IMG/VR virus record: IMGVR_UViG_3300030098_004365 | Location: 3,136 to 54,414 of that record | Length of the DNA stretch: 51,279 bases | Origin: a virus | Strand: one strand, 5' to 3' | Part shown: positions 23,010 to 33,699 of the stretch, one piece after another | How the letters are laid out: each line of letters begins with the position of its first letter | Numbering within the stretch: position 1 is the stretch's first letter | The notes under the pieces: generated by a model | The model's database searches: none | What the model was told of the DNA's origin: nothing | Seen by the model: only the letters and a program-made list of their open reading frames with translations | Translations under genes and position numbers: made by a program

Positions 23010-23299
23010 CCAAAGAAGAAATATTAGCGAAAGCTAAAGAAATCATTTCTAATGATAGAAATGAATCACACGGAGATGCATTTAAGAATCATGCAGAAAT
23101 TGCAGAGTTTTGGAATATATTTCTAGATGGTAAATTACAGCCAATGGCATCCATTACTGCGCAAGACGTAGCGATTATGATGATATTACTAAAAGTTTCA
23201 CGTTCCAATCAGGGAAAGAAATTTAACTTGGATAATTTTATTGACATGGCTGGTTATTCAGCAATTGCAGGAGAGATAGGTGACAGTGGATCTTTTTAA
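23006..23299 (+). CDS. DUF6378-like small phage protein
   Basis: 97 residues. The pattern SHGDAFKNHAEIAEFWN, TAQDVAIMMILLKVSR and NLDNFIDMAGYSAIAGEIGD is that of the DUF6378-type phage proteins: an all-helical domain often found next to nucleotide or DNA metabolism genes, of unknown activity. It overlaps the helicase (ATGA) and the polymerase gene (20 bases), so it is co-translated with the replication enzymes. Confidence 0.75.
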   Translation: MTKEEILAKAKEIISNDRNESHGDAFKNHAEIAEFWNIFLDGKLQPMASITAQDVAIMMILLKVSRSNQGKKFNLDNFIDMAGYSAIAGEIGDSGSF

Positions 23300-25145
23300 T
23301 AAAAATGAAGTAAAAGCAGAATGGTTACATCCTACAGAATTTCCTTCTATGAAGGGAAGACAGGTAGTGGCGATAGATTTAGAGACATGTGATACTGATT
23401 TAAAGAAAATGGGTCCTGGTTGGCCTCGTAAAGTTGGAAAAGTTATAGGTATTGCCCTATCCAGTGGTGATTTTACTGCTTACTATCCAATTGCTCATGA
23501 TGGTGGTGGAAATATGGACAGTGAAGTTGTCTTAAAATACATAAAAAGCATCTGTGAGGATGAATCTATTCAAAAGGTGTTCCACAATGCGCAGTACGAT
23601 ATTGGGTGGCTCAGCGTGCTAAATATTGAAGTTAAAGGGTATATTCATGACACTATGATTGCTGCTGCATTATTAAATGAGAATAGATATTCATATACTC
23701 TAAATAGTATAGTTAGTGAGTATTTAGGTGAATATAAGGATGAAAAGGTTTTAAAAGCTAAGGCAGAGGAGCTAGGAATAGATCCTAAAGCAGAGATGTA
23801 TAAACTTCCAGCAGAATTTGTAGGAGAATATGCAGAAGCAGATGCCCTTCTTACTTTTAGATTACATGAAAAATTGATGCTAGAGATTAAAAACGATGCA
23901 TTAGAGACTGTGTATGACACAGAGTGTAGACTAATTAGGGTTATATTTAACATGACTAAACGTGGTGTTAGAGTTGATATGCAAAGAGCATTTGAACTTA
24001 AAAGAAAGTTACAGGTAAAAGAAAAAAATTATCTTAAAAGAATAAAAGATATTACTGGATCTGATGTGCAGGTTTGGGCAGCACGGTCAGTGGCCCAGGC
24101 ATTTGATGATGTTAATTTAGAATACCCAAGAACTGCGTTGGGTGCTCCTAGTTTTACTCAAACTTTTTTGGAAACACATAAGCATGAGCTTCCTCGTATG
24201 ATTACAAAAGCACGTGTATTAAATAAGTTACAAGGAACATTTGTTGATGGAATAGCTAAATATATTCATAATGATAGATTACATGCACACATAAATCAAA
24301 TACGTGGTGATTCTGGTGGAACTGTGACTGGTAGATTTTCTATGTATGCTCCTAATTTACAGCAAATGCCTATTAGAAATGAATTTGGATCTGAGTTACG
24401 AAAAATATTTATACCAGAACAAGGAGAATATTGGCTTTCAGCTGATTATTCGCAGCAAGAACCTCGTATTCTTACACACTTTGCTATTTTAAATAAAAAT
24501 GAAGGTGCTGAGGATGTTCAAGACGCATTTATAAAAGGATTAGACTTCCATAAACAAACTGCAGAGATGGCAGGCATACCAAGAAGATTGGCAAAAACTA
24601 TTGGCCTTGGTGTTATGTATGGAATGGGCTATAAAAAACTTGCTGTTGATTTAGATATCAGTCCGGTAGAAGCAAAAGAAATGCTTAAAGAATTTAGAAC
24701 TAAAGTTCCTTTTATGCAAGGTATGCTTGAAGATGTAATGAATAGGGCAAACAAAGTAGGAACAATTAGAACTTTTTTAGGAAGGAAATGTAGATTTGAT
24801 TTATATGAGCCTTCTTGGTACGAACCAGGTGTTTTTCATAAAGCATTACCGCTTAAACAGGCGCAAGCAGAGTATAATGGTCAAATTAAAAGGGCCGGTA
24901 CATACAAAGCATTAAATCGTTTAATACAAGGCACAGCTGCAGATCAAACTAAAAAAGCTATGGTTGATGTATATGAAAAACTTGGTATTGTGCCGCTTAT
25001 TCAAGTACATGATGAGTTGAATTGTAGTGTAAAATCTGATAAAGAGGCAGGAGAGATAAAAAATATAATGGAAAATTCTATGAAATTGGTCGTTCCTTCT
25101 AAAGTTGATTTTAAGGTTAAAGATAACTGGGGAGATGCAAAATGA
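23280..25145 (+). CDS. polA: Family A DNA polymerase with 3'-5' exonuclease
   Basis: 621 residues; GTG 23280 taken as start, GTG 23286 is an alternative. Exonuclease motifs: D33-L-E35, FHNAQYDIGWL, YAEADALLTF. Polymerase motif A: SAD389YSQQEPR; motif B (O-helix): RRLAKTIGLGVMYG; motif C: VH577D578E579L. It lacks the 5'-nuclease domain of bacterial Pol I, as phage enzymes do. At the position equivalent to E. coli Phe762 it has Leu443. No CxxCxGxG DnaJ-type zinc insert is visible, unlike the polymerase reported for phage HMO-2011. Replicates the phage genome. Confidence 0.95.
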   Translation: MTVDLFNKNEVKAEWLHPTEFPSMKGRQVVAIDLETCDTDLKKMGPGWPRKVGKVIGIALSSGDFTAYYPIAHDGGGNMDSEVVLKYIKSICEDESIQKVFHNAQYDIGWLSVLNIEVKGYIHDTMIAAALLNENRYSYTLNSIVSEYLGEYKDEKVLKAKAEELGIDPKAEMYKLPAEFVGEYAEADALLTFRLHEKLMLEIKNDALETVYDTECRLIRVIFNMTKRGVRVDMQRAFELKRKLQVKEKNYLKRIKDITGSDVQVWAARSVAQAFDDVNLEYPRTALGAPSFTQTFLETHKHELPRMITKARVLNKLQGTFVDGIAKYIHNDRLHAHINQIRGDSGGTVTGRFSMYAPNLQQMPIRNEFGSELRKIFIPEQGEYWLSADYSQQEPRILTHFAILNKNEGAEDVQDAFIKGLDFHKQTAEMAGIPRRLAKTIGLGVMYGMGYKKLAVDLDISPVEAKEMLKEFRTKVPFMQGMLEDVMNRANKVGTIRTFLGRKCRFDLYEPSWYEPGVFHKALPLKQAQAEYNGQIKRAGTYKALNRLIQGTAADQTKKAMVDVYEKLGIVPLIQVHDELNCSVKSDKEAGEIKNIMENSMKLVVPSKVDFKVKDNWGDAK

Positions 25146-26212
25146 GCATAAATAAAGAAACAAGAAAAAAAAGAATGGAAAACAAGAAGAATAGTTTTGC
25201 CATTAATCCGGAGCAAATGGAGTATGAGCGAAGAAAAGTACTTGAACAAATGTCTACGAAAATTGATCGTAAAAAGCTCAACAATATGGCAGCAGTTGCG
25301 GCGACAAAAGAACCGGAATATTTTGACGAAGAAGGAAACAAAAGAGAACCGAACTTGCGCATACTTTCACTCGGGGCAGGGGTACAGTCTTCCTGTCTGG
25401 CACTCATGGCGCAAGAAGGATTAACAAAACATAAACCAGATTACATGATATTTGCTGATACGGGATGGGAACCCTCATTCGTATATGAGCATGTAGAATA
25501 TTTAAAGAAAGCAATAACAATTTGTCCACTCATTACTGTAGAACGAAGTAATATTCGTGAGGATCTTATCCGTGCAGCGAACCCAATTAAAGGGTCAAAT
25601 GAGGAACATAAATCTTTCGCCGGGCGTGTACCAAATCCACCTTTATTTGCTGCTCGTCCTGGTGGAAAGGTTGGAATGCTTTACCGACAATGTACACATG
25701 ACTATAAAGTTATTCCTATTCAGAAAAAGATTAGAGAGATCTTGGGAGTAAAACCAAGACATAGAGTTAAAAAAGGAACAATCGTGGAACAGTGGATAGG
25801 CATATCTACTGATGAAGCAATGCGCATGAAAAACGCAAGACTTCCATGGTTAACATCACGTTGGCCTTTAATAGAAATGAAGATGTCTCGTATGGATTGT
25901 CTTCAGTGGTATCGTGATATTAAGAAACACCCCATGCCTGGTAAATCATCGTGCATAGGGTGTCCTTATCATCATAACGATCAATGGAAAAATATGCAAA
26001 AAAATTATCCAGCAGATTTTGAAGATGCATGCGAAGTTGATGATAAAATAAGACATGGATTAAAAAATACTACGGCGGAACTGTTTTTACACAAATCAGC
26101 TAAACCGCTTCGAGATATAAATTTCTTAGAGCCAAAGAAACAAGCAAGTTTATTTGGTGAAACATTTGATGAAGAATTCGCAGATGAGTGCGAAGGACTG
26201 TGTGGAGTATAG
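25142..26212 (+). CDS. PP-loop ATPase, PAPS-reductase/DndC-like
   Basis: 356 residues, ATGA overlap with polA. The PP-loop reads S76-LGAGVQSS-84, followed by MIFADTGWEP, a typical second strand of the PAPS reductase family. Cysteines C184 (YRQCTHDYK) and the pair C271/C274 (SSCIGCPYHHNDQW) could carry sulfur or bind metal. The first 60 residues are a charged helical extension. These enzymes activate a substrate with ATP, often to insert sulfur; phage members are annotated as PAPS reductase-like without proven substrate. A SufE-like gene follows 0.6 kb later, which favours sulfur transfer. Confidence 0.8.
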   Translation: MSINKETRKKRMENKKNSFAINPEQMEYERRKVLEQMSTKIDRKKLNNMAAVAATKEPEYFDEEGNKREPNLRILSLGAGVQSSCLALMAQEGLTKHKPDYMIFADTGWEPSFVYEHVEYLKKAITICPLITVERSNIREDLIRAANPIKGSNEEHKSFAGRVPNPPLFAARPGGKVGMLYRQCTHDYKVIPIQKKIREILGVKPRHRVKKGTIVEQWIGISTDEAMRMKNARLPWLTSRWPLIEMKMSRMDCLQWYRDIKKHPMPGKSSCIGCPYHHNDQWKNMQKNYPADFEDACEVDDKIRHGLKNTTAELFLHKSAKPLRDINFLEPKKQASLFGETFDEEFADECEGLCGV

Positions 26213-26316
26213 TGGCTAAAGTAGGACTAGCTAAACACAGAGGAAGACGAAAGCTTGGTAGGAAGAAAAGAAGAAAACGTTCTGCTAAGTGGAGAAATAA
26301 AAAAACAGGAAGGTGA
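26212..26316 (+). CDS. Tiny, extremely basic protein, 34 aa
   Basis: GTG start overlapping the last base of the upstream TAG. The 34 residues include roughly 17 Arg/Lys (KHRGRRKLGRKKRRKRSAKW) and no acidic residue. No ribosome site of its own is obvious, so it would be made by coupled translation. Such composition suits binding to DNA or RNA. It could be a chance frame, but its exact fit between two genes and absence of stops in Lys/Arg-rich codons argue for coding. Not recognised. Confidence 0.55.
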   Translation: MAKVGLAKHRGRRKLGRKKRRKRSAKWRNKKTGR

Positions 26317-26318
26317 TT

Positions 26319-26513
26319 ATGGAAAAGAAAAAAATAGAAGAAAGAAAAACAGCATTACAAACACAACATGATGATGTTGCACAAAAAATAAACCAAGGTA
26401 AAAATGCATTGGGTAATTTAGAGGCAACATTGATGGGTTTAAAAGGTGCTATTTCACAAATTGATTGGGTGTTAGGACTATTTGTAGACGAAACAAGCAA
26501 AAAGGACAAATAA
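26319..26513 (+). CDS. Coiled-coil protein, 64 aa
   Basis: ATG 26319 chosen because AGGAAGG lies about 6 bases upstream; a GTG two codons earlier is possible. The sequence is one long charged helix (EERKTALQTQHDDVAQKIN) then a short amphipathic part (LMGLKGAISQIDWVLGLF). The C-terminus overlaps the next start (TAATG). Function unknown; small helical proteins of this type often act as assembly or regulatory partners. Confidence 0.6.
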   Translation: MEKKKIEERKTALQTQHDDVAQKINQGKNALGNLEATLMGLKGAISQIDWVLGLFVDETSKKDK

Positions 26514-26794
26514 TGGATGTTTGGGACCCAAACGATAAAACGACGGTTTTCTGCCAAATAAAAAAGCTCATAAACACCCCGGTATCGGGGTTTAAGCGAT
26601 GGAGTGGTATGATTCTACCCGGGATATTAACCGTTTTTTACTTTTTTATATTTTTTTTAATATTATCTGGATGTGCCTACTTTCAAAAAGATAAAACTGA
26701 CGATGAAATAGTTACAACTGAATTACTACCACTAGAAATGTCACAAGATAAAAAAATTGCATGTATAAAATTAGAACCAGAGTGTGATGATTAA
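26513..26794 (+). CDS. Predicted lipoprotein, 93 aa (possible internal start)
   Basis: From ATG 26513 the protein has about 32 soluble residues, then a hydrophobic segment VFYFFIFFLILSGC ending in a lipobox LSG-C. Lipoprotein signals normally begin at the N-terminus, and ATG 26609 (with GGAG upstream) would give a 61-residue form starting MILPGILTVFYF. That form would look like a small outer-membrane spanin (Rz1-like). A hairpin lies at 26576-26591 between the two starts. Which start is used cannot be told; both may be. Confidence 0.55.
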   Translation: MDVWDPNDKTTVFCQIKKLINTPVSGFKRWSGMILPGILTVFYFFIFFLILSGCAYFQKDKTDDEIVTTELLPLEMSQDKKIACIKLEPECDD

Positions 26795-27197
26795 AAGAAG
26801 ATTGGATAGATATGTACAAGTACTTAGCAACATTGATGACTCTCAAGATAAATTCTTGTGGATTATGGATTTTGGAAAAAATTCCAGAGCCATGTCTGAC
26901 GACCATAAAGTTAAATCTTTTGAAGTTCCAGGTTGCCAGAGCCAAACATGGTTGGTCCCGCATTTTATTGATGATAAAATATATTTTACTGCTGATTCAG
27001 CTGCACTTATATCTAAGGGCATGGTTTGTATCATTGCGGATGTGTACAGTGGATCTTCGGCCCAGGATATAAATGATTTTGATCAGAAAGAGTTTGAAAA
27101 AATGAATCTTAGTACTTTATTAACACCAGGAAGAAATAATGGTGTTCATAGTATGCTGAAAAAAATTAAATCTTATGCTAGTCCCACTTCGCCTTAG
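26787..27197 (+). CDS. SufE-like sulfur acceptor/carrier
   Basis: 136 residues from ATG 26787 (a GTG one codon earlier is possible). It follows SufE over its full length: DDSQDKFLWIMDFGKN, then EVPGC50QSQTWLVP with the catalytic cysteine, YFTADSAALISKGMVCIIAD, the QDINDFD segment and LTPGRNNGVHSML. SufE takes persulfide sulfur from a cysteine desulfurase and passes it on. No desulfurase is encoded here, so the host's would be needed. Placed downstream of the PP-loop enzyme, it could supply sulfur to it, or support Fe-S assembly. Confidence 0.85.
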   Translation: MIKRRLDRYVQVLSNIDDSQDKFLWIMDFGKNSRAMSDDHKVKSFEVPGCQSQTWLVPHFIDDKIYFTADSAALISKGMVCIIADVYSGSSAQDINDFDQKEFEKMNLSTLLTPGRNNGVHSMLKKIKSYASPTSP

Positions 27198-28563: not shown

Positions 28564-30315
28564 CTATTCTCCTCTCAAGAGCTTTAATTCTATCATAATA
28601 CCAGCTTTTTGTATAGCCAATTCTTCTAGTTCACGTCTGTAGATTTCCACTGGATCCCCTTGAATATACATCACTAATGTTACATCATTATATATCTCTT
28701 TACTGTATTCGATCATACTTAATTGATCAAAAAAGTCATTATTTACGTCATATTGGAGGCCCTTATCCTGATAAAAATCCTTATTTGAATAAGTATCTAG
28801 GTTAACGACCTCCTTAAATATATCACGTGGATCTACGGATACTTTAATTTCCCCTACATCCACATTTTTAATCTTAATTTCCTTGCTGACTTCTATGTTT
28901 TTGGTTGTAATTCCTCCTTTGTCAGCAACATCTGTTTCTTCCAATGATTCTTCCTCATTCGAAGCAGTCTCTGATACGCTTTCTTCCGATCCCGACTCTT
29001 TTTCCAGTGCTTCTTCATTACCTTCAGAAGATTTTTCATCCTCTTTGGGCTCTTCTGTGCTGTCATCATTTTCAGCTACCTCCATTTCTTCATCCTCTCC
29101 CTCCATTTCTACTACATCTTCTTCTGTTTCTGGCTCCATGTCAATAGTTTCTTCCTCAGCTACCTCCATTTCTTCAAATTCTTCTTCCATTTCCATTTCA
29201 GTAAATTCCTCTTCCATTTCCATTTCTTCAGACATTTCCTCAAATTCTTCTACCATTTCCATTTCTTCAAATTCTTCTGATAATTCCATTTCCTCAAATT
29301 CTTCAGGCATTTCCATAAATGCACCTTCATCAAATTCTTCTTCAAAATACATTTCAGTAAATTCTTCTTCTGGGATCATAGTCATGTCAAATTCTTCAAA
29401 TTCTTCAGGCATTTCCATTTCTACAAATTCTTCTTCCATTTCAAAATACATATCTTCATTAAATTCCATTTCATAATCTATTTCCCAATCACCAATTATA
29501 TAGTCATCCCCTATATTAAAATCTTCTTCAAAATAAAAATCTTCTTCCCATGTAAAATAGTCTTCTTCCCATGTAAAATCTTCTTCCCAAGTAAAATCTT
29601 CTTCAAAATCGGGAATATCACTTTCAATATCTTCTGTTATATCATCTAATTCTTCTTGTGTATCTTCATCAATAGGAGGTAGATTTGTATATGTCACATT
29701 TAATGTAACATTATCTACATCTGGACCACGATGATAACCATCATAGGTTGTGCCTGCAGTTTCGTTATGCACTTCTGCTCTAATTGTAATATCTGTTTGT
29801 GTATTTGAACCTTGAATATAAACGTTTGTATAGTTTGTAAACGTACCACCATTTATTGACCTACTAGGGTCATGGTCATTTATCTCTCTGATTTGTGTAG
29901 TTACTGAACCATCAGCGCCTGTAATAGTTTGTTTAAGGGTAAGTGTGTTTTCAATACTGTTCCAAAACCATACGTCTGCTGCCATGGTTGAAGTAAAGCC
30001 TTGATTCATTTGATATTGTGTTAGATGGTCATCATCAACTAAATCTACATCCTGGTATACATTATCTTCTTCATGCCCTTCAAATGCTAATACACCACCA
30101 GATGTATCCATTCCTGATTGATATGGAAAGTTACCAAAATTACCGTGAGTGTGAACACCATGGTCGCCGTCTGTCGACCAACCAGTTGTGGTTGTGGTGT
30201 TACCAGTTCCAAATGTTGAGTTTGTTAAAAGATTTCCTGTTGTTACTGTTTCACTAATCGCGTTCGACGATAACAGGCACAGGGTCAACAACAGGCTCGA
30301 TAGTGTTAACTTCAT
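28564..30315 (-). CDS. Secreted protein with long acidic repeat region, 583 aa
   Basis: Residues 1-19 are a classic signal peptide (LSSLLLTLCLLSSNA, cleavage before ISE). Residues 22-210 form a beta-rich domain beginning NLLTNSTFGTGNTTTTTGW, resembling jelly-roll carbohydrate-binding modules. Residues about 215-460 are dominated by Glu with Phe, Met and Trp at regular intervals: first FTWEED units, then EEFEEME-type units. The last 110 residues return to a normal mixed composition (IKIKNVDVGEIKVSVDPRDI). It overlaps the upstream gene by 62 bases, and the signal peptide supports this start. I do not know a named family; a periplasmic or surface role is inferred. Confidence 0.75.
   Translation of the reverse strand: MKLTLSSLLLTLCLLSSNAISETVTTGNLLTNSTFGTGNTTTTTGWSTDGDHGVHTHGNFGNFPYQSGMDTSGGVLAFEGHEEDNVYQDVDLVDDDHLTQYQMNQGFTSTMAADVWFWNSIENTLTLKQTITGADGSVTTQIREINDHDPSRSINGGTFTNYTNVYIQGSNTQTDITIRAEVHNETAGTTYDGYHRGPDVDNVTLNVTYTNLPPIDEDTQEELDDITEDIESDIPDFEEDFTWEEDFTWEEDYFTWEEDFYFEEDFNIGDDYIIGDWEIDYEMEFNEDMYFEMEEEFVEMEMPEEFEEFDMTMIPEEEFTEMYFEEEFDEGAFMEMPEEFEEMELSEEFEEMEMVEEFEEMSEEMEMEEEFTEMEMEEEFEEMEVAEEETIDMEPETEEDVVEMEGEDEEMEVAENDDSTEEPKEDEKSSEGNEEALEKESGSEESVSETASNEEESLEETDVADKGGITTKNIEVSKEIKIKNVDVGEIKVSVDPRDIFKEVVNLDTYSNKDFYQDKGLQYDVNNDFFDQLSMIEYSKEIYNDVTLVMYIQGDPVEIYRRELEELAIQKAGIMIELKLLRGE
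29157..29610 (-). repeat. Coding minisatellite of acidic repeats
   Basis: Within the secreted acidic gene, short units recur in tandem. At 29539-29610 three to four copies of a unit containing TCTTCTTCCCATGTAAAA (plus strand) encode FTWEED. At 29157-29420 many variants of ATTTCTTCAAATTCTTC encode EEFEEME. Unit length and reading frame are kept while third bases vary, so the array is under protein-level constraint and not a recent slippage product. Confidence 0.75.
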
Positions 30316-32943: not shown

Positions 32944-33068
32944 ACAAGACCTGCGAGTTAAAAAAGTTAATTAAAGATATTGTTAAAGAAGTATTAAAAG
33001 AGATTAAAGAAGAAGAAGATAAAAAATTAAGAGAGGAAATAGAAAAAAGTTATGGCGGAACAGACTGA
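32940..33068 (+). CDS. Small charged helix protein, 42 aa
   Basis: Begins MNKTCELKKLIKDIVKEVLK and continues as a Glu/Lys helix, then a short GGTD tail. It overlaps the zinc-ribbon stop (ATGA) and the next gene by 17 bases. A single amphipathic helix; likely a coiled-coil peptide. Unknown function. Confidence 0.5.
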   Translation: MNKTCELKKLIKDIVKEVLKEIKEEEDKKLREEIEKSYGGTD

Positions 33069-33699
33069 ATTAAAATACGATATATATCAACCATTTGGGC
33101 CTAGTATATTAAAGACTACATTGCCCCAAGGCTATGTTAATTTATTGAATGCTGAATCTGATCGTATATTATATGATGATAAGTTGAGTAAGGAACATGA
33201 CTGGTCACATAATTTAGCTGGTAATGTTAAGAAAGAAATTGCAATTGATCAAAATACCATACCAGGATTTCCAGAGTTTCTTATTACAATGTCGAAAGTT
33301 TATTATAAACACACAATTAATAAAGAACCTACTGATGGCAGTAAAGTTGCATTTCGTACGTGGGTTGTATCACAAGTTGCGGGTGACTTTAATCCTGTGC
33401 ATATTCATGATGCTAATTTATCTGGTGTTGCATTCTTAAAGATCCCGCCAGGATTTGATGAAGAGTACGCGAAAGAGGATCATCACCCAACAGCTGGGTG
33501 CTTAGAGTTTCTTGGATCCATGCCTAATCATTTTGCGCGTCATAGTTATATAGTTAAACCAGAAGTTGGAGATTTTTATTTGTTTCCTTCATGGCTTACA
33601 CATCAAGTGTATCCGTTTAGATGTGAAGGTGAGCGTCGTTCACTTGCATTTAATGTACATTTTACGATGGATAATCCTGTGAAAGGTGTTAACGTTTAA
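33052..33699 (+). CDS. 2OG-Fe(II) oxygenase family protein
   Basis: 215 residues. The iron site reads NPVH117IHDANLSGVAFLKIP (His plus D120) with H184 in SWLTHQVYPF, and the 2-oxoglutarate-binding Arg in GERRSLAFN (R195 or R196). This is the pattern of the phage-common 2OG oxygenase group whose core begins with a HxH/HxD before LSGV. Such enzymes hydroxylate or demethylate proteins, nucleic acids or small molecules; the substrate here is unknown. The start overlaps the previous tiny gene and the stop overlaps the next (TAATG). Confidence 0.85.
   Translation: MAEQTELKYDIYQPFGPSILKTTLPQGYVNLLNAESDRILYDDKLSKEHDWSHNLAGNVKKEIAIDQNTIPGFPEFLITMSKVYYKHTINKEPTDGSKVAFRTWVVSQVAGDFNPVHIHDANLSGVAFLKIPPGFDEEYAKEDHHPTAGCLEFLGSMPNHFARHSYIVKPEVGDFYLFPSWLTHQVYPFRCEGERRSLAFNVHFTMDNPVKGVNV

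Follow-up and report, generated by a model that had tools for sequence, protein, structure and literature searches.

An SspD-like PP-loop protein and a SufE-like sulfur carrier are retained together in a marine phage lineage

We analyzed a 51,279-nucleotide stretch of viral DNA (hereafter, the window), which corresponds to bases 3136-54414 of the 54,414-bp IMG/VR virus record IMGVR_UViG_3300030098_004365. Directly after polA, the gene for a family A DNA polymerase, the window carries on one strand a gene for a PP-loop protein, three small genes and a gene for a SufE-like sulfur carrier, all with overlapping or abutting ends. We found strong evidence that the PP-loop gene and SufE are both core genes of this phage lineage, and moderate evidence, from comparison of related sequences, that the two work together. 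The explanation we favor, tentatively, is that the PP-loop protein is a mobile-element sulfurtransferase resembling SspD, which would act on DNA and, in these phages, would receive sulfur from the host cysteine desulfurase by way of SufE. A previous reading of the window, made from the sequence only, had proposed a sulfur-transfer module at this site, and our results partly support and redirect that interpretation. The gene order, strand and overlaps that it described after polA were confirmed, as was the presence in the PP-loop protein of the loop at residues 76-84 (SLGAGVQSS) and of Cys184, Cys271 and Cys274.

Among IMG/VR contigs found by either gene, all 38 PP-loop loci with at least 3 kb of downstream sequence carry SufE, and all 83 SufE loci with at least 1.5 kb of upstream sequence carry the PP-loop gene; because of overlapping loci, some contigs are counted repeatedly. 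The only lineage SufE loci lacking a PP-loop gene are on contigs or stretches that start close upstream of SufE. To avoid selecting loci by the PP-loop gene or SufE themselves, we also sampled by polA only. When polA was at least 66% identical, the PP-loop gene was present at 33/33 loci with at least 1.5 kb downstream, and both genes were present at 14/14 loci with at least 3 kb downstream. Neither gene is carried by any of the four loci with that much downstream sequence in a sister group whose polA is near 51% identity. The complete phages 023Pt_psg01, HTVC023P and DSL-LC04, which are polA relatives at 46-49%, have neither the PP-loop gene nor SufE; in tblastn the window polA matched DNA polymerase A of phage 023Pt_psg01 (49%) and of Pelagibacter phage HTVC023P (48%). 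This distribution would fit a single acquisition followed by strict retention. In comparisons of the window with its relatives, the ratio of nonsynonymous to synonymous substitution rates (dN/dS) was ~0.03-0.06 for the PP-loop gene and 0.10-0.18 for SufE, indicating strong purifying selection, and the pair are not chance open reading frames.

The identification of the downstream protein as SufE-like, with a catalytic cysteine in GCQSQ, was borne out by a match to the Pfam SufE family PF02657 (E 8.6e-33; 113.2 bits versus a gathering score of 27; residues 13-130) and by a match in the PDB (E 1.3e-16). The match to NCBIfam PRK09296 (6e-25) fell under the equivalog cut-off, which is unsurprising for a phage form that has diverged. 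The protein resembles SufE and CsdE in matching the family over its full length and in keeping the GCQSQ catalytic loop and the DS and R117 regions; the catalytic cysteine is kept in nearly all lineage proteins (Table 1) and in all cellular homologues aligned. It differs from the cellular forms in being 29-39% identical to them, in belonging to a separate, well-supported clade and in having no suf operon around it. The tree, which places the lineage SufE proteins in this single clade, names no host; the lineage groups loosely, over few columns, with Actinomarina and ferredoxin-linked virus forms. Because no match to the cysteine desulfurase family was found in 12 lineage records, the host desulfurase would be needed, as the sequence-only reading had supposed.

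By profile comparison, the nearest named relative of the PP-loop family is SspD, of the Ssp system of single-strand DNA phosphorothioation (SspABCD). The PADLOC SspD profile (PDLC02782) matches the window protein (E 8.5e-11) as well as all 32 members of the family alignment, with a best E of 5.5e-20. SspD is an ATP pyrophosphatase of the PP-loop type supplied by a cysteine desulfurase, as the window protein would be, and binding between SspA and SspD has been shown (PMC7188994). The likeness has limits: the profile match covers mainly residues 182-326 of the window protein, the 12 lineage records contain no SspA gene, and published accounts of the Ssp system include no SufE sulfur relay. PHROG phrog_424, which is named "PAPS reductase" (for 3'-phosphoadenosine 5'-phosphosulfate), also matches the protein (E 3e-47). 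Among solved structures, the best, though weak, sequence match was PDB 21fy chain C (E 0.0005-0.0012), labeled "PptA", a name whose meaning we did not find in the literature searched.

The residues of the putative sulfur-chemistry site are highly conserved. Loop residues S76, L77, G78, G80, Q82 and S83 and the cysteines C184, C271 and C274 are invariant across sets of 10, 32 and 46 family members. The C-terminal CxxxCG is invariant in the sets of 32 and 46 and present in most plasmid copies; two actinobacterial copies retain only its second cysteine. SLGAGxQS, C184, C253, C271xxC274 and CxxxCG are kept across phage groups that are 41-49% identical to the window protein, and the family motifs also occur, with the exceptions noted, in the plasmid copies checked. 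Structure prediction of the window protein was mediocre, with a predicted local distance difference test (pLDDT) of 77; a shorter family member, 48% identical, was modeled well (pLDDT 88; predicted template modeling score 0.86). The latter model has a PP-loop/CysH-type fold whose nearest PDB structures (PAPS reductases, LarE-[4Fe-4S], TtuA and YcfA) lie in a sulfur-chemistry neighborhood. The modeled fold and the chemistry class thus have good support, unlike the exact reaction.

The sequence-only reading had called this protein PAPS-reductase/DndC-like. A PP-loop with a plausible sulfur-chemistry site stands, but of the profiles it named only SufE was matched, for the second protein: CysH fell under its cut-off, DndC, TtcA and ThiI gave nothing, and SspD-like is the better description. 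A CysH-type PAPS reductase serving as a sulfate-assimilation auxiliary metabolic gene is suggested by the name carried by PHROG 424 and many GenBank records, by the fold, which is nearest to PAPS reductases, and by the presence of C-terminal cysteines. However, the Pfam PAPS_reduct score is 16.9 bits, under the 22.5-bit cut-off, no NCBIfam model of CysH or adenosine 5'-phosphosulfate (APS) reductase was matched, and the family has an SLGAGxQS loop and a C-terminal CxxxCG, which differs from the CysH catalytic motif. We therefore rejected a CysH identity and, given also the rare, mobile-element distribution of the family, consider the sulfate-assimilation explanation very improbable. Membership in DndC was likewise rejected because no DndC model was matched (PADLOC at E up to 1; NCBIfam at 0.1), and no DndA, DndD or DndE partners were seen in the proteins and records scanned. 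What DndC shares with the family is a general layout: it has a three-cysteine 4Fe-4S center and a separate cysteine dyad thought to carry sulfur (PMC10853773). By analogy, this suggests that the cysteines of the PP-loop protein may be divided into cluster ligands and a sulfur dyad. Another mobile-element PP-loop protein suspected of nucleic-acid modification, the CysH-like protein of Type IV-B CRISPR systems, is reported to lack the catalytic cysteine (PMC8175902), whereas the present family keeps its C-terminal cysteines.

In the SspD-like mechanism that we favor, ATP would be bound in the SLGAGVQSS loop and an oxygen of the substrate would be activated. Sulfur bound as a persulfide to the C-terminal cysteine pair would then replace the activated oxygen, with help from an iron-sulfur (Fe-S) cluster or a redox site built from Cys184, Cys271 and Cys274. 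The sulfur would originate from L-cysteine via a host cysteine desulfurase of the SufS/CsdA type and would be relayed by the phage SufE; the most likely substrate would be DNA, or the nucleotides of the replicating phage genome, and the benefit would be protection from host nucleases. We infer the transfer of sulfur from SufE to the PP-loop protein, the type of cluster, DNA as the substrate and the protective role, and of these the transfer and the substrate are the weakest links.

Several observations weigh against this explanation. Outside the lineage, the two genes are found apart: SufE is carried by 0/80 HTVC034P-like PP-loop loci (565 kb of sequence) and by none of the isolate phages with a PP-loop gene, so the family usually works without a phage SufE. 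SufE was also absent beside the plasmid PP-loop copies inspected. Conversely, 21 of 22 further viral contigs with SufE-type patterns show no PP-loop gene in the stretch examined; 11 of these 21 were searched whole and gave none, with a positive control confirming that the search works. Routine occurrence of one gene without the other, which the sequence-only reading had named as evidence against its proposal, is thus seen outside the lineage but not within it, where co-occurrence is strict. Within the lineage, the co-occurrence may reflect one acquisition inherited by one lineage. SspB, SspC, DndD and DndE were not found among the subset of window proteins scanned, and the same subset did not contain a complete known phosphorothioation machine. 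The PDB fold matches of the PP-loop model are distant, with template modeling scores of about 0.4-0.55. Finally, in one group of SufE-only marine virus contigs, SufE is near a 4Fe-4S ferredoxin.

The last observation bears on the main rival, which is that SufE boosts host SUF Fe-S assembly during infection, either generally or for the PP-loop protein's own cluster, rather than donating sulfur for the PP-loop reaction. Previous work has reported sufE in ocean viromes and read it as Fe-S assembly under stress (PMC8940887). On marine virus contigs L455, L459 and L461, SufE occurs near a 4Fe-4S ferredoxin and ThyX with no PP-loop gene, an arrangement that supports the published reading, and the three invariant cysteines of the PP-loop protein could hold a cluster. 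Unless it is that cluster which is served, Fe-S assembly leaves unexplained why, in the lineage, SufE is invariably found some 0.5-3 kb downstream of the PP-loop gene despite changing genes in the interval, and why both genes are absent together from the sister polA group. We regard this rival as a real possibility, albeit on the unlikely side.

It is also conceivable, though improbable, that the PP-loop gene and SufE are functionally unrelated, the first an orphan and the second an accessory, and happen to share one conserved early block. Each is found without the other elsewhere, and neighbors are conserved too: in a census of 86 distinct PP-loop-to-SufE intervals of 0.5-3 kb, we recognized the 93-amino-acid gene in 84, a zinc-finger-like gene in 52, the coiled-coil gene in 48, a GcrA-like gene in 43, 2-oxoglutarate (2OG) oxygenases in 37 and 13, and the 34-amino-acid basic peptide in 10. 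These intervening genes turn over while the PP-loop gene and SufE stay, and the joint presence and absence of the two across polA groups, with no split in the lineage, argues against an accidental association. Pairwise distances of the PP-loop and SufE proteins are correlated after polA and helicase are removed (partial r 0.55; 0/2000 permutations), and, with the rest taken out, neither set shows a correlation with polA. Yet similar correlations were obtained in controls that paired SufE with the coiled-coil gene and the PP-loop protein with an upstream gene, which again counts against a functional pair. Because the signal, though significant, is not specific to the pair, it may reflect linkage or clade structure; we rejected it as proof of functional coupling and take it as weak support only.

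The wider distribution of the PP-loop family points toward mobile DNA. The family was found in only 6/385 alphaproteobacterial genomes, which fits a mobile-element gene rather than a housekeeping reductase, and on 177 plasmid records, 110 of them from Agrobacterium. On pAt, pTi, Nitratireductor and Roseibium plasmids, ardC is directly followed by the PP-loop gene with a 1-bp overlap. These pairs are near tra genes in 3/4 plasmids, and their PP-loop gene is annotated only as hypothetical. ArdC is an anti-restriction protein required for conjugation into restricting recipients (PMC7213743); the pTi copy was identified by the Pfam families ArdcN and MPTase-PolyVal, and the others by homology. In the literature searched, we found no published description of this translational coupling on Ti-type and other alphaproteobacterial conjugative plasmids. 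A Shinella plasmid has one small gene between ardC and the PP-loop gene, and in Niveispirillum the PP-loop gene is adjacent to an ardC homologue. Elsewhere, the PP-loop gene overlaps a C5 cytosine methylase (Dcm) gene on a Streptomyces plasmid, lies two genes downstream of a Dam-type methylase on a Laceyella plasmid, and follows a ParB-like gene in another plasmid context. On Mesorhizobium plasmid MesoLjLa5 (L496:3479-4798), a single frame encodes a complete PP-loop protein preceded by the N-terminal third of a C5 cytosine DNA methylase; this may be a real fusion, or a truncation, frameshift or assembly error. About ten places were inspected, many of them related and not amounting to a census, and the plasmid linkage is a lead with several independent-looking contexts. 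Because these neighbors are DNA-protection genes, DNA is the leading suspect as target; the suggestion made from the sequence alone, that DNA is modified, gains from this DNA-centered context of the family elsewhere, and we still infer the target.

Alternatively, the molecule thiolated by the pair could be transfer RNA (tRNA) or a free nucleotide, and not DNA, as with TtcA/Ncs6 or YcfA. A PP-loop protein with three cysteines resembles the [4Fe-4S] tRNA thiolases in outline, Foldseek lists the structures of TtuA, NcsA and Erwinia YcfA, and a site beside polA would suit a modified-nucleotide route. However, we found no tRNA gene in the window, none of the tRNA thiolase profiles (TtcA, Ncs6, ThiI, MnmA) was matched in Pfam or NCBIfam, and the neighbors on plasmids are genes for anti-restriction and DNA methylation rather than RNA genes. 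This explanation, which we rank next after Fe-S assembly, seems to us quite unlikely.

Returning to a DNA-directed sulfurtransferase, the probability that the PP-loop family serves generally as a DNA-protection enzyme of mobile elements is substantial. A fuller proposal, which we advance as rather doubtful, is of a compact sulfur-based DNA-protection enzyme common to phages and conjugative plasmids, SspD-like without known Ssp or Dnd partners and translationally coupled to ArdC on plasmids, to which one marine phage lineage would have added SufE so as to tap the host desulfurase for sulfur. Annotation commonly labels phage proteins of this family PAPS reductases, and they are tallied among the auxiliary genes of sulfate assimilation. 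Our evidence points away from this and to a mobile-element sulfurtransferase in DNA-protection neighborhoods, including those of tumor-inducing and other conjugative plasmids. If its product were sulfur-modified DNA, phages and plasmids would have a new route to evade host defenses, and SufE would be a part of a sulfur relay, not a general Fe-S aid.

Table 1. Features of the polA-SufE block (positions in the window)
Feature	Position	Strand	Basis or remark
polA (family A DNA polymerase), upstream anchor of the module	23280..25145	+	tblastn to phage DNA polymerase A
PP-loop protein gene, 356 amino acids	25142..26212	+	SspD-like family common to phages and plasmids; PHROG 424
PP-loop SLGAGVQSS, residues 76-84	25367..25393	+	invariant S76, L77, G78, G80, Q82, S83
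Cys184 in QCTxxYK motif, putative Fe-S/sulfur ligand	25691..25693	+	invariant
Cys253 of PP-loop protein	25898..25900	+	invariant; absent from the sequence-only reading
Cys271-x-x-Cys274 in S-x-C-x-x-C-P, putative cluster ligands with Cys184	25952..25963	+	invariant
C-terminal C350-E-G-L-C354-G-V, putative persulfide-carrying dyad	26189..26209	+	invariant in 32 and 46 members; absent from the sequence-only reading
34-amino-acid very basic peptide gene, GTG start	26212..26316	+	open frame
64-amino-acid coiled-coil gene	26319..26513	+	recognizable in 48/86 intervals
93-amino-acid gene, membrane/lipoprotein-like, one hydrophobic stretch (LILSGC)	26513..26794	+	recognizable in 84/86 intervals
SufE-like sulfur carrier, 137 amino acids from GTG (136 from ATG 26787)	26784..27197	+	Pfam and PDB matches
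SufE catalytic Cys (C51) in GCQSQ	26934..26936	+	at least 98% conserved in 57 lineage SufE proteins

The genes of the block are tightly packed. polA and the PP-loop gene overlap by 4 bp (ATGA), the 34-amino-acid gene starts at the last base of the PP-loop stop codon, and the 93-amino-acid gene overlaps the coiled-coil gene by 1 bp and also overlaps SufE. SufE marks the end of the rightward block, because the next genes are on the opposite strand. Convergent to the block, at 28564-30315 (-), the window encodes a 583-amino-acid protein whose N-terminus is signal-like and which contains long acidic EEF/EEM repeats.

The extremely basic 34-amino-acid peptide gene after the PP-loop gene is retained in some relatives. 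A 2OG-Fe(II) oxygenase (PF13759) is encoded in the window at 33052-33696 (+), and in many relatives such oxygenases lie inside the PP-loop-to-SufE interval (L029, L050); they are possible further modification enzymes. Some lineage SufE proteins (L110:7950-8420, L118:7950-8393) carry a cysteine-rich N-terminal extension (MKHDKCGTPDCCQECG) before the SufE domain. Three INPHARED matches to SufE in isolate phage records (MW462191, MT836179, OQ572403) were set aside as bacterial DNA, probably misfiled as phage: SufE is there among clearly bacterial genes, the three neighborhoods comprising SusC/SusD, a csdA-like desulfurase with a glnD-like gene, and EvgS with SsuA. A Salisaeta PP-loop query against the viral collection recovered only itself. 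Cultured carriers of the PP-loop gene, besides plasmids, are HTVC034P on Pelagibacter, Geobacillus phage PK5.1 and Mycobacterium phages.

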